Shown here piece by piece: positions 12,322 through 40,732 of a stretch of 64,000 bases of DNA (its first letter is position 1; each line of letters starts with the position of its first letter). Origin of the DNA: an uncultured bacterium (GTDB taxonomy: Bacteria > Cyanobacteriota > Vampirovibrionia > Gastranaerophilales > Gastranaerophilaceae); assembly GCA_949296425.1 (NCBI GenBank), contig CASFPN010000045.1, positions 1-64,000 of the forward strand, read 5' to 3'. A program made the translations under genes and the position numbers. The notes beneath the pieces are model-generated. The model saw nothing but the letters and a program-made list of their open reading frames with translations. It ran no database searches and was not told the DNA's origin.

Positions 12322-14817
12322 ATGAAAGACGCATATTTTCCTCAGGAAATAGAAAAAAAATGGCAAAAAATATGGGAAGAAAACGGAGCTTTTAAAACCT
12401 CGGATGACAGTAACAAACCCAAATACTACGCTCTTTCCATGTTTCCGTACCCTTCAGGAAAACTTCACATGGGACATGTGAGAAATTATACAATTACCGA
12501 TGTGATTGCACGTTTCAAAAAAATGAACGGATATAATGTTTTGCACCCGATGGGTTGGGACAGCTTCGGACTGCCTGCTGAAAATGCGGCAATGAAGCAT
12601 GGGGCAAATCCGGAAACCTGGACTGATGAAAATATTGCATATATGACAAAACAGTTAAAAATGCTTGGTCTTTCTTATGATTGGGACAGAGAAGTTACAA
12701 CCTGTAAACCTGATTATTACAAATGGACCCAGTGGCTGTTTTTACAGCTTTATAAAAAAGGGCTTGCTTACAAAAAAGAAGCTGCCGTAAACTGGTGTGA
12801 AGAATGCGGAACAGTGCTTGCAAACGAACAGGTAATTGATGGAAAATGCTGGAGATGTGACCATGTTGTTGAAAAAAAATATTTATCCCAGTGGTTTTTG
12901 AAAATCACCGATTATGCGGAAGTTTTGCTTGAAGATTTAGACAAATTAACAGGCTGGGGTGATAACGTCAAAACAATGCAGGCTAACTGGATTGGCAAAT
13001 CTGAAGGTGCAATTTTCAGATTTAAAGTTGTTGAAAACGATATGGAAGTTCCCGTTTATACAACAAGACCTGATACGGTTCATGGTATAACCTATCTTGT
13101 TGTTGCGCCTGAATATAAAGATATAGAAAAATTAACAACTCCCGAAAATAAAGAGACAGTCGAAGCATACCGTGCTAATGCGCGTAAAATGACTGAGATT
13201 GAAAGGCTTTCAACTGACAGAATTAAAACTGGCGTACCTTTGGGTACTCACTGTATAAATCCTTTTACGGGCGAAAAATTCCCTCTGTGGACGGCAGATT
13301 ATGCATTGGCGGAATACGGAACCGGTGCTGTTATGGCTGTTCCTGCGCATGACACACGAGACTTTGATTTTGCTAAAAAATACGATCTCCCGATCAAGGT
13401 TGTTATAACCCCTCACTCTAACCCTCTCTCACAGGGGGCGATGGTACTCACTGAAGCTTATACCGAACCTGGCGTTCTCGTAAATTCAAACGAATTTGAC
13501 GGAATGAAAAATGAAGAAGCTAAAAAAGCGATTACGCAAAAAGCTGTTGACGGTGGTTTTGGCGAATTTAAAACCCAATACAGGTTAAGAGATTGGCTTG
13601 TTTCAAGACAAAGATACTGGGGTGCTCCTATCCCTGTTGTATATTGTGACAAATGCGGTATTCAGCCCGTTCCGGAAGAGCAGTTGCCGGTATTATTGCC
13701 GAAAGATGTTGATTTCAGTGTTGTCGGCAAATCTCCGATTACAACATCGAAAACTTTCGTAAATACTACCTGCCCGTGCTGCGGGGGACCTGCCAGACGT
13801 GAAACCGATACAATGGATACATTTGTCTGCTCAAGCTGGTATTATCTCAGATATTCCGATGCTAAAAATGATAAAATGCCGTTTGAGAAAGACAAAGTAA
13901 ACAAATGGCTTCCGGTTGACCAGTATGTTGGCGGTATTGAGCATGCTATTTTACACCTTTTGTATTCACGGTTTTTTACAAAAGCTTTAAGAGATCTTGG
14001 ACTTTTGGATTTTGATGAGCCTTTTAAAAATCTTTTGACACAGGGAATGGTTTTAAAAGACGGGTCAAAAATGTCTAAATCTAAAGGCAATACGGTTGAT
14101 CCTGATGAAATATTTGAAAACTACGGTGCAGATACCGCAAGATTATTTATTCTTTCGGATTCACCGCCGGCACGTGATTTTGACTGGTCTGATGCAGGTG
14201 TTGAAGGATGTTACAAATTCTTGAACAGAGTTTGGAGATTGATTTCTTCAAATGCTGAATTAATTGACCTGAGTCATCCTGAACTTGTTTCAGGATCTCT
14301 CAAGAAGAAAGACAACGACAATCTTCTGCGCCTTGTCCACATTGCAATTAAAGGTATTACCAATGATATTTCAAATGACTTCCAGTTCAATACGGTAATT
14401 TCAAAATACAGAGAACTTGTTAATGCAATATATGACTGGAAAGCCAAAAAGTCTGAGCTTGATGATGAAGATAAGGCGATTTTGAGCTTTGCAGTCGTAA
14501 CATTAATCAAATTAATGTCTCCTGTTGCCGTTCACCTGACAGAGGAAGCATGGCATGAGCTTGGCGGCGAAGGTTCTATTCATGATATAGAATGGCCGAA
14601 ATGGGATGAAAATCTTGCCAAAGCAAGTTCAATAACACTTGTTGTCCAGATTAACGGCAAAGTTAAAGATAAGATTGAAGCTGATGAAGGTTTATCAGAA
14701 GATGAGCTAAAAGCTCTTGCCCTGAACAGCGAAAAAATAAAAGAACTCACAGCAGGAAAAACAATTGTAAAAACTATTGTTGTTCCTAAAAAATTGGTTA
14801 ATATCGTTGTTAAATAA
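12322..14817 (+). CDS. leuS: Leucyl-tRNA synthetase
   Basis: LeuS attaches leucine to tRNA-Leu and edits mischarged tRNA. The 831-residue class I synthetase has the HIGH-type motif (PYPSGKLHMGHVRNYT), a zinc-type insertion with cysteines (CEECGTVLANEQ and CWRCD), the editing domain (TTRPDTVHGITYLVVAPE), and KMSKSKGN. GGAGAGAAG precedes the start. Two oddities lie in variable loops: residues SHPELVSGS are encoded by a dispersed palindromic repeat at 14275-14297, and a stretch near 13405-13442 looks like another repeat read in frame. The frame is intact, so both are tolerated. Confidence 0.97.
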   Translation: MKDAYFPQEIEKKWQKIWEENGAFKTSDDSNKPKYYALSMFPYPSGKLHMGHVRNYTITDVIARFKKMNGYNVLHPMGWDSFGLPAENAAMKHGANPETWTDENIAYMTKQLKMLGLSYDWDREVTTCKPDYYKWTQWLFLQLYKKGLAYKKEAAVNWCEECGTVLANEQVIDGKCWRCDHVVEKKYLSQWFLKITDYAEVLLEDLDKLTGWGDNVKTMQANWIGKSEGAIFRFKVVENDMEVPVYTTRPDTVHGITYLVVAPEYKDIEKLTTPENKETVEAYRANARKMTEIERLSTDRIKTGVPLGTHCINPFTGEKFPLWTADYALAEYGTGAVMAVPAHDTRDFDFAKKYDLPIKVVITPHSNPLSQGAMVLTEAYTEPGVLVNSNEFDGMKNEEAKKAITQKAVDGGFGEFKTQYRLRDWLVSRQRYWGAPIPVVYCDKCGIQPVPEEQLPVLLPKDVDFSVVGKSPITTSKTFVNTTCPCCGGPARRETDTMDTFVCSSWYYLRYSDAKNDKMPFEKDKVNKWLPVDQYVGGIEHAILHLLYSRFFTKALRDLGLLDFDEPFKNLLTQGMVLKDGSKMSKSKGNTVDPDEIFENYGADTARLFILSDSPPARDFDWSDAGVEGCYKFLNRVWRLISSNAELIDLSHPELVSGSLKKKDNDNLLRLVHIAIKGITNDISNDFQFNTVISKYRELVNAIYDWKAKKSELDDEDKAILSFAVVTLIKLMSPVAVHLTEEAWHELGGEGSIHDIEWPKWDENLAKASSITLVVQINGKVKDKIEADEGLSEDELKALALNSEKIKELTAGKTIVKTIVVPKKLVNIVVK
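14275..14297. repeat. Dispersed palindromic element, family A, inserted in frame in leuS
   Basis: ATCCTGAA (14276-14283) pairs with TTCAGGAT (14289-14296). The sequence matches the intergenic copies near 6146, 10849 and 24743. It encodes SHPELVSGS within a variable region of LeuS after the KMSKS domain, like the coding palindromes known from Rickettsia. Confidence 0.75.
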
Positions 14818-14827
14818 GGAGAAGTTT

Positions 14828-15253
14828 ATGCAAAAAATATTGAAACAAAATCAAAATCTCGGGGGGGGGGCAGTTCTGGGCTAAGTTTCTTTCCCCTCGC
14901 CCTTTGAGAGAGGAAGCAGTTGTGTGAACAAAGTGAACATATAACTGCAGGTGAGTGTCTTTTAGAGGTCAGGAAGTCAAGCTATTATCCGTAATAAGTC
15001 TTTAACCAATTTTATCAAATCATCTTTAGATGAAAAAGGAAAAGATTTGTTTGTAGTAATGCTTACCGATGATTGGATTAAGCCGATCGGTGCTGATGGA
15101 ACATTTAATAAAAATGCAAACGGTGATGTCTGTGAATGTTCTAAAGATGTAGGAGCTGAAGGCGGACAAGGTTTTTTAGGCTCTACCAATTTATTGGACG
15201 GCACAGCTCTTTCCGGCGTTTGTTGCAGTGCATATAAATTATATTCGGATTAA
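14828..15253 (+). pseudogene. Broken prepilin-like gene with a G10 tract
   Basis: A strong ribosome site (AAGGAGAAGTTT) and ATG at 14828 start a frame of 11 codons that enters ten G residues (14861-14870) and stops at TAA shortly after. None of the three possible readings after the tract reaches the downstream coding segment. From about 14966 to 15253 a frame encodes a prepilin C-terminus (KPIGADGTFNKNANG, CECSKD, SGVCCSAYKL). This matches the end of the gene at 39672-40732 (MGAEGTF, CECSKDQG, SGVCCSAKYL). The FTLAEV helix and most of the body are missing, so this looks like a deletion remnant 10 bp after leuS. Confidence 0.75.
14861..14870 (+). repeat. Homopolymer G10 tract
   Basis: Ten consecutive G residues after codon 11 of the broken prepilin gene, preceded by CTC. 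The same layout (SD, ATG, 11-13 codons, G10, then GCA) occurs at 39711-39720. Confidence 0.9.
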
Positions 15254-21518: not shown

Positions 21519-22304
21519 TTATAACTCACCGGGCATGTAATTTTCATAGTAGTATTTGTGATATAGAAAGTCAGGCTTGGTGAGGGCATAATATGTGCAG
21601 CCAATGCCGGAAAACTTACCATTTTCAGTCTTATTGCAATTGTAGTTATATATATTTGAACACATGGTTTTACCGCCGCAGGGTGAAATCTGTTTATCTG
21701 TTATCAAGAATGTAAATGTATCGCGTCCCCAAGCATTAGGTTTTTTGAATGGGCCGTTTAAATCTACTGTTACCATACGCCCATAGATATTTGTCCCTCC
21801 AAAAGAGATAAGCCGCCCCTCTTTTGTTAAAAATTGGTCTTTCCCGAAATAATAATTAGTGTTAGTGTTTTGGTTGTCAAAAACTAATGAGCCTGTGTAA
21901 GTGTAATATATAATTCCTTTTGAATTATAGCACTCTCTTTCCTTACAGTCTACAGCTCCGTCATAATATTTCATAAAAAGTTCTTTTACTTCACTATTTT
22001 CTAAAGGAGTGACGATATTGAGTATATTTTCACCATAGTCATTAGAAATGCGATTAACTACTGTTTGCAGTTCCGCATAACTTTTGTTTAATTGTGTAAG
22101 TATTACTTTTGCCTGATATTTTTGAAATAATGCAGATAATGTGATAGCCGCAACAACACCAATTATGCCGAGGGTGACTAGGACCTCTGCTAAAGTGAAC
22201 GCGCATTTGTGTTGACTGTTCGACAGGGGGGGGGTAAAACCAGCTTGCCTTCCTGCTTTATGACCTTCTAAAGTAACATTTAAAATTCGTTTTTCACTAT
22301 CCAT
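21519..22304 (-). CDS. Prepilin-like protein with a C9 tract in its leader (in frame)
   Basis: The 261-residue protein has an unusual 36-residue leader, then CAFTLAEVLVTLGIIGVVAA, the class III prepilin signal and hydrophobic helix (Glu at +5). Prepilin peptidase would cut between A and F. The exported part contains Asn-rich strands and cysteines, with WGRDTF matching FGRDVF of the gene at 39672. A run of nine C on the coding strand (plus strand G9, 22226-22234) encodes part of FTPPLS in the leader; here the frame is open. AGGAGAAAG precedes ATG. It is divergent from an XRE regulator. Confidence 0.85.
   Translation of the reverse strand: MDSEKRILNVTLEGHKAGRQAGFTPPLSNSQHKCAFTLAEVLVTLGIIGVVAAITLSALFQKYQAKVILTQLNKSYAELQTVVNRISNDYGENILNIVTPLENSEVKELFMKYYDGAVDCKERECYNSKGIIYYTYTGSLVFDNQNTNTNYYFGKDQFLTKEGRLISFGGTNIYGRMVTVDLNGPFKKPNAWGRDTFTFLITDKQISPCGGKTMCSNIYNYNCNKTENGKFSGIGCTYYALTKPDFLYHKYYYENYMPGEL
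22226..22234. repeat. Homopolymer G9/C9 tract in prepilin leader
   Basis: Nine G on the plus strand, nine C on the coding strand, between codons for FT and LS of the leader. Any change other than a multiple of three would close the frame before FTLAEV. Confidence 0.9.
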
Positions 22305-39644: not shown

Positions 39645-39671
39645 TAATTTATGTAAAGAAAGGAATGTTGT

Positions 39672-40732
39672 ATGAACGGATTAAGTAATTTTAAAGATTT
39701 GCAAACCTTCGGGGGGGGGGCACTCCAGAGCTAGGCAGAGGATTAGATGTCAAGAAGTCAAGCTATTTAAATCTCGTAAGATACTATGTCACTAAGGCAG
39801 TAAGAAGTATCGTAACAATTTCCCGGGAGAGGGGTGCTACGCACGTAGATCTGCCGATCAGCCAACGCAAATCCGTCTTTACCCTTGTAAAGGGTGCTGC
39901 GCACGCAGCCCTACCGAACAAGCAGTGCAAATGCGCGTTTACATTGGCAGAGGTTCTCATCACCGTCGGTATTATAGGTGTTGTTGCGGCTATGACGTTA
40001 TCGACAGTAATATCAAAGATACAGGATAAGCAAAATATTGCCAAATGGAAAAAGGAATTCTCTGTAGTAAGCAACGCGTTTAATGAAGTAGTCGCTGACG
40101 GAGTAACAATATGTAATTATACTCAATCCGGTAATTGTAAAGGGCAAGAATTTACAGATGAATTTGTAAAAGCCATACAGGCAAAGTTAAATGTAATAGA
40201 CTATTGCGGCTTAAAAGTTTCGGATAGTAATAAACGTTGTGATTATTTTAACAGCAACTGGTATGAAGCACATGCAAAATACAAATGGTCCGGAGTTGCA
40301 AATCTCTATAGCCGTTATAAAGCTTTGGGAGTAAAAGAAGAATCTAACCCTGGCTCTTATTATCCTTATGGAATATATGCATACAATTTTTCCAGTCTTG
40401 CACTTCTGTTGTCAGACGGTGCTGTTGTATATCTTGGAGAAAGTCATAACGGGCCATGGGTGGTAGTTGATGTGAATAACTTTCAAACAGGCCCTAATGA
40501 ATTCGGGCGTGATGTGTTTGTTGCCCGTGTATTTTCAAACATAAAAACCGGCAAGCATTATCTGAGTCCAATGGGTGCTGAAGGGACTTTTTCACCTGAT
40601 GACATAAACGGTGATGAAAAATGTGAATGCTCAAAAGATCAAGGGGTAAAAACAGGTACTTATTTTATAGGTGTTGGTTCAAAATATATAATCTCCGGTG
40701 TTTGTTGTTCCGCTAAATATTTGATGGAATAA
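39672..40732 (+). CDS. Prepilin-like protein interrupted by a G10 tract (out of frame as read)
   Basis: AAAGGAATGTTGT and ATG at 39672 start 13 codons (MNGLSNFKDLQTF) that run into ten G (39711-39720) and stop at TAG 39732-39734. With one more G, or two fewer, the frame continues without a stop to 40732 and gives about 353 residues: a leader of about 90 residues, then CAFTLAEVLITVGIIGVVAAMTL (prepilin signal, Glu at +5), then a body with FGRDVF, MGAEGTFSPD, CECSKD and SGVCCSAKYL. I therefore list one gene with a switchable frame; a sequencing error in the homopolymer would look the same. Confidence 0.8.
39711..39720 (+). repeat. Homopolymer G10 tract in prepilin leader
   Basis: Ten G after codon 13 of the prepilin gene at 39672. 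Length modulo three decides if the whole protein is made. Same context as 14861-14870 (C before, GCA after). Confidence 0.95.
39830..39946 (+). repeat. In-frame imperfect tandem repeat (2 x 57 bp) in the prepilin leader
   Basis: 39830-39886 and 39890-39946 match at about 41 of 57 positions with one codon between. They encode RGATHVDLPISQRKSVFTL and KGAAHAALPNKQCKCAFTL, so the segment before and including FTL is doubled. Each copy contains a palindrome (CTACGCACGTAG; GCTGCGCACGCAGC). Confidence 0.85.

Follow-up and report, generated by a model that had tools for sequence, protein, structure and literature searches.

A leader G tract as a candidate phase-variable switch in a multigene prepilin-like family of Gastranaerophilales

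Replication slippage in a G tract that controls pili has been demonstrated in a gut commensal, Bifidobacterium breve (PMC9187656). The sortase-dependent pilus switches of this bacterium (bbr_0113, bbr_1889; Penno et al. 2022, PMC9187656) are the closest precedent for the locus described here, which lies in a 64-kb stretch of DNA (the window) from an uncultured bacterium of the Gastranaerophilaceae. In both cases, a gut commensal carries an intragenic tract of G10 or G11 in the 5' part of a pilus gene, and the reference length is out of frame. The ON state by replication slippage and the heterogeneity of the population were demonstrated in B. breve (PMC9187656), whereas the prepilin tracts considered here are known from assemblies. 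B. breve, a member of the Actinobacteria, has two such loci for sortase pili, while the type IV prepilin-like loci found here exceed 50 per genome. The prepilin tracts also differ in that they have one register, a polarity tied to GC skew and conserved DNA flanks.

The polyG/polyC contingency genes of Campylobacter jejuni (approximately 30 tracts per genome, with lengths of about 8–11) are likewise switched on and off at the level of translation. They serve mostly in glycan and flagellar modification, occur in mixed ON and OFF states and belong to an organism with no mismatch repair. Unlike the prepilins, they are not one paralogous family in a single default-off register. The vlhA genes of Mycoplasma gallisepticum form a large paralogous surface-protein family in which the repeat length switches each copy and most copies are off. 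In vlhA, the repeats are GAA units upstream of promoters, the control is transcriptional, and the products are lipoproteins. The prepilins resemble vlhA as a big, putative surface-protein family with a proposed switch for each copy and most copies off, but their repeat is a G tract in the leader of the gene and not GAA before a promoter. Pilin variation in Neisseria relies on a G tract in pilC and on G4-initiated gene conversion at pilE, with one expression locus and silent cassettes. Pilus biology with G runs and the exchange of modules near a G run are common features; however, dozens of complete genes are present here instead of one expression locus with silent cassettes.

No paper on phase variation in Gastranaerophilales/Melainabacteria turned up in a literature search. 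The gene at 39672 probably belongs to a set of type IV prepilin-like genes that numbers about 100 and in which more than half of the members have their own G or C homopolymer switch in the leader. If this is true, the phase-variable repertoire of an abundant, mostly uncultured order of animal gut bacteria ranks among the largest seen in genomes of 2 Mb. Pilin-type proteins would be under the control of more than 50 independent switches, with off as the common state for all, and these would diversify the surface combinatorially in a group of commensals that is not known for such variation.

The locus at 39672–40732 and its predicted product

The first-pass annotation had described a prepilin gene that a change in tract length would restore, and the reading of the locus bears this out. 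An ATG at 39672–39674, with the ribosome-binding site AAGGA approximately 8 nt upstream, opens 13 codons that run into ten G residues at 39711–39720. Translation from this ATG gives MNGLSNFKDLQTFGGGALQS up to a TAG at 39732–39734, 12 nt past the tract. The +1 frame, taken from 39719, is stop-free up to the stop codon ending at 40732. One extra base in the tract gives a product of 353 residues, the length claimed previously, and the restoring tract lengths are G11 or G8, which match the gain of one G or the loss of two proposed earlier. The features of the locus are as follows.

39658..39674, + strand: ribosome-binding site AAGGA and ATG of the prepilin leader (sequence; homologous loci are arranged alike)
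39672..39710, + strand: 13-codon leader MNGLSNFKDLQTF, whose last codon is the conserved TTC next to the tract (sequence; flank conservation)
39711..39720, + strand: G10 tract, the proposed slipped-strand switch, in frame if G11 or G8 (sequence; locus comparison)
39721..39734, + strand: conserved 3' flank CACTCCAGAGCTAG, which holds the ATG-frame TAG (sequence; flank comparison)
39721..39936, + strand: long pilin-frame leader made of dispersed repeats, with an earlier copy of the FTL site, KSVFTLVKGAAHAALPNKQCKCA (sequence; locus comparison)
39938..40732, + strand: mature pilin-type protein FTLAEVLITVGIIG..., 264 aa (TIGR02532; AlphaFold2 model)

A tandem unit of about 60 nt, ending in an FTL(A/V) codon block, is found at 39838–39970 of the window and in many other leaders. 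The translated unit, GATHVDLPxSQRKxxFTLAK, is a duplicate of the region directly before FTLAEV, and such units suggest repeated insertion at that point. The leucyl-tRNA synthetase gene of the window (12322–14817) appears to hold an in-frame, repeat-derived insertion as well, LIDLSHPELVSGSLKKKDN. It resembles the palindromic-element peptides HPELVSGS and VILNLFQDL, which also fill prepilin leaders.

The mature protein matches TIGR02532 with 19.6 bits, above the cut-off of 16.3, and its match to PF07963 falls below the cut-off of that family. The AlphaFold2 model, based on 26 homologues (pLDDT 89, pTM 0.86), has a single long N-terminal helix (residues 4–54) and a beta-rich domain. Two hallmarks of a prepilin or pseudopilin, the N-terminal methylation/cleavage motif (TIGR02532) and a hydrophobic helix (4–54), are present. 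A search of the PDB gave no structural match for the globular domain at E ≤ 0.001; the sole pilin among the structural matches of this part was a type IVb pilin, which was weak (probability 0.57). The same genome encodes a prepilin peptidase (Peptidase_A24) and, for the platform, four T2SSF matches in two genes. Judged from its sequence, the product of the 39672 gene is type IV prepilin-like, and its processing and filament assembly are putative.

Tracts, reading frame and relatives across the prepilin family

Only three runs of G or C longer than six are found in the window: ten at 39711, nine at 22226 and ten at 14861. The last two belong to the following features.

22226..22234, − strand: C9 tract (G9 on the + strand) in the leader of a second prepilin gene, 22304–21519 (−), in frame as assembled
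14829..15253, + strand: third tract locus, with ATG at 14829, G10 at 14861–14870 and an ATG-frame stop soon after

The flanks of the 22226 tract depart from the common motif. Past its stop, the third locus holds a fragment of the C-terminal part of a pilin without FTLAEV, and it is probably a decayed copy.

The host genome (2.0 Mb in 46 contigs, 99.95% complete, 35% GC) contains 89 runs of at least nine G, compared with 0.46 expected; for runs of at least ten, the expectation is approximately 0.08. The majority of the 89 sit in prepilin leaders, at codons 8–25. A search with the pilin N-terminus gave about 101 prepilin-like genes, of which more than half carry a G or C tract at these codons, with FTLAEV following after a leader that spans 5 to about 130 codons. 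The rest, fewer than half, are tract-free, and the approximately 20 that were read have mostly short in-frame leaders, such as MKKG before FTLAEV or MNKRA before FTLSE. The arrangement at 39672, with the identical missing base, recurs at about 50 further loci of the genome and in related genera. Contigs end approximately 150 nt past tracts where loci have identical downstream modules in common (L003, L041 and L079 on contigs C3, C5 and C25; L050, L082 and L086), and because contigs break at these modules, some prepilin loci are collapsed in the assembly.

For comparison, 171 open prepilin loci were collected (56 from this genome, 93 from its genus, 17 from a second and 5 from a third genus of the family), and the ATG supported by a ribosome-binding site, the tract and the FTLAEV frame were placed in each. 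The tract length is exactly 10 in 148 of the 171, a share inflated in the genus, where many loci were retrieved by a G10-specific pattern, while the register is unselected. A single added base is required at 139 of the 148 G10 loci. Across the three genera, the in-frame length is 2 mod 3 (8 or 11) at 155 of the 171 loci, and since nearly all have this one register, the common length is OFF everywhere. Sixteen of the 171 are in frame as assembled. Where the comparison could be made, the ATG-frame stop ends within 20 nt past the tract (132/139 loci). Of 24 tracts inside other kinds of genes, with two rows from the GC-rich L242 excluded, 15 are in frame, and the difference in register from the prepilins is marked (Fisher p 2e-8). 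Among these other genes are L065, which encodes a membrane protein of the host genome, and genes of the G119 genome that resemble glycosyltransferases and FkbM.

The leader between the tract and FTLAEV contains 24 stops in 6550 codons of the pilin frame (0.4%), compared with 514/6435 and 558/6435 (about 8%) in the other two frames, a depletion of more than 20-fold. The 24 stops were counted over 179 loci, 171 of which are free of any. Because of this depletion, the leader is, as judged by its coding constraint, translated in some cells. No start codon lies between the tract and FTL at 84 of the 171 loci, and there the pilin would therefore be made only by crossing the tract. A translation start downstream of the tract was considered and rejected on the same count, with only 14 loci combining a start codon with an SD-like sequence.

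Alleles that are in frame occur naturally. G11 is found in L033, L095, L132, L134, L307, L329, L333 and L340, and C tracts are in frame in L136 (C8) and L171 (C11). Over relatives and paralogues with otherwise intact genes, tract lengths range from 8 to 12. In relative G013, the leader ATGAAAAAAGAGAATTTTAGAAACTTC occurs unchanged in two paralogues, of which one is G10 and OFF and the other G11 and ON; the latter is a homologue of the window pilin (56% identity). At the transporter–prepilin–MFS junction, most relatives with adjacent neighbours have no prepilin (gaps of 13–118 nt), two have a prepilin behind G10, another has an in-frame G11 prepilin, and one more (G010) has a tract-free prepilin with a nonsense codon. 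These states of the junction indicate, by sequence comparison, that prepilin genes are gained and lost as units and that one locus differs in tract length between species. The first-pass annotation had named relatives that are always broken as evidence against a switch. Such a pattern was not encountered: the homologue in a relative is G11 and in frame, and the in-frame G11 prepilin at the equal chromosomal position is a second counter-example. In the G010 gene (L393), TAA replaces the conserved Glu codon of FTLAEV.

Phase variation and rival explanations

Three hallmarks of a slipped-strand contingency locus are present: a simple repeat of a kind hypermutable in length lies in the 5' coding region (G10 at codon 14), unit changes toggle between a complete and a truncated product (171 loci), and the length varies among relatives and paralogues with intact genes. 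The likely reading is a repertoire of many prepilin genes under slipped-strand phase variation, with the modal tract length OFF, so the original interpretation as a phase-variable switch is supported and remains the best explanation. DNA polymerase slippage at the tract would alter its length. On a tract of the modal length, 10, a ribosome would make a peptide of 15–25 residues and stop just past the tract (OFF). At a length of 11 or 8, it would read through the leader into FTLAEV, and cleavage by prepilin peptidase and assembly would follow (ON). Each cell may then express a few pilins with a freshly changed tract, in addition to the tract-free pilins, about 20 in number, whose frame is always intact, and the population would consist of many cells, each with a small, shifting subset of pilins. 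The anatomy, the uniform register, the coding constraint on the leader and the natural G8 and G11 alleles are seen in the sequences; frequent changes of length within populations, as well as the expression, display and function of the pilins, are inferred.

The main rival, which is improbable, is programmed recoding. The DNA would stay clean G10 or C10, and RNA polymerase slippage (one additional base in the mRNA) or a −1 ribosomal shift on G_GGG_GGG or C_CCC_CCC would yield some full-length pilin. The single offset at nearly all loci and the near-constant length are as in a recoding site, and the position of the ATG-frame stop just past the tract also fits. Nevertheless, the 16 loci in frame at the DNA level speak against it, as do the unrelated genes L065 and L176, which are in frame with C10 or G10 and the same flanks, and in which slippage would be harmful. 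Of the two parts of a −1 frameshift site, the slippery heptamer is trivially present, and the downstream stimulator was not found. In the 80 nt downstream of the tract, structures without pseudoknots were nothing unusual (mean z −0.28, n = 139), and RNA structure was rejected as a driver of frameshifting. Bacterial slippage sites known so far are usually A/T runs (PMC3711429). The very narrow spread of lengths counts against phase variation itself, since 8–11 repeats have been reported within Campylobacter populations (PMC6097035), which is wider than in the prepilin tracts. This is softened by the fact that an assembly gives the mode of a population, in addition to the G10-specific retrieval of many relatives. 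Loss of mismatch repair was rejected as a factor: mutS is present in 33/33 genomes of the genus, so slippage is not boosted in this way.

The alternative raised originally, a homopolymer error, has become much weaker. If real tracts were G11 and one G were dropped by short-read assembly, all genes would be on; polyG runs of at least 8 residues do attract errors in Illumina data (PMC4235727), and annotated lengths in B. breve differed from the true ones (PMC9187656). However, G11 and G12 tracts occur in the same assemblies, most G11 prepilins and the G8 allele are in frame, and the offset of the G10 prepilin loci is seen again in independent, SPAdes- and megahit-style assemblies. In other genes, most G9 and G10 tracts are in frame, which speaks against an undercall because a uniform −1 error would break them. 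An undercall is possible at any single tract, but it leaves the family-specific offset beside in-frame tracts unexplained. A general undercall is thus quite unlikely, and an isolated error at 39711–39720 is also unlikely. Even less credible is a decayed family of pseudogenes broken by a shared repeat insertion. The leaders are rich in repeats, the 14829–15253 copy is truncated, and L028 and L042 have extra stops; yet the leader and mature frames are open for hundreds of codons in most copies, with pilin-frame stops depleted, and neutral loss would not hold one register through three genera. Under phase variation, automatic annotation will label most tract-bearing prepilin genes as broken or misplace their starts.

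Tract polarity, flanks and mosaicism

On contigs with two or more tracts, 3 of 83 tracts lie on the minority strand, and these three are without the usual flanks. Sampling of G013 in 20-kb stretches gave 18 tracts, and every one is on the strand of positive GC skew, including those in genes that point the other way. With GC skew as a proxy only, the putative leading strand carries the G run in genes of either orientation. Among the unselected loci of the host genome, read on the G strand, TTC precedes the tract in 29/37 G-coding and 15/19 C-coding genes, and CA follows it in 32/37 and 17/19, respectively. This conservation cannot stem from the encoded amino acids because the coding strand is reversed between the orientations. 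The flank motif is TTTC-G10-CA[AC]TYCTNAGCT in the host genus, TNAC-Gn-CA in the second genus and TAC-Gn-TA in the third. Mosaic pairs join at the tract: L016 and L050 are 97% alike over 60 nt upstream, with only background similarity downstream, and L003, L041 and L079 are at least 98% alike downstream and different upstream.

An exact-pattern scan for the extended motif gave no match in viral_contigs and, with the long flank, none in genome_contigs, and a mobile element occurring elsewhere was rejected on these grounds. As a tentative and rather doubtful proposal, the tract and its flanks might be a DNA-level element, always with G on the putative leading strand. Concerted evolution or copying might keep it alike at dozens of loci in either gene orientation, and it might thereby install and maintain a default-off frame switch over the whole surface-protein repertoire. 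The replication-linked polarity and the orientation-independent flanks raise the question of how dozens of tracts keep one length and one polarity. In the related genus of G119, about 58 tracts of at least nine G are present, and those sampled are mainly in surface-carbohydrate-type genes, with mixed strands and lengths of 9–11 at L358–L367. By their sequence, these look like ordinary phase-variable glycan genes within the same bacterial family.
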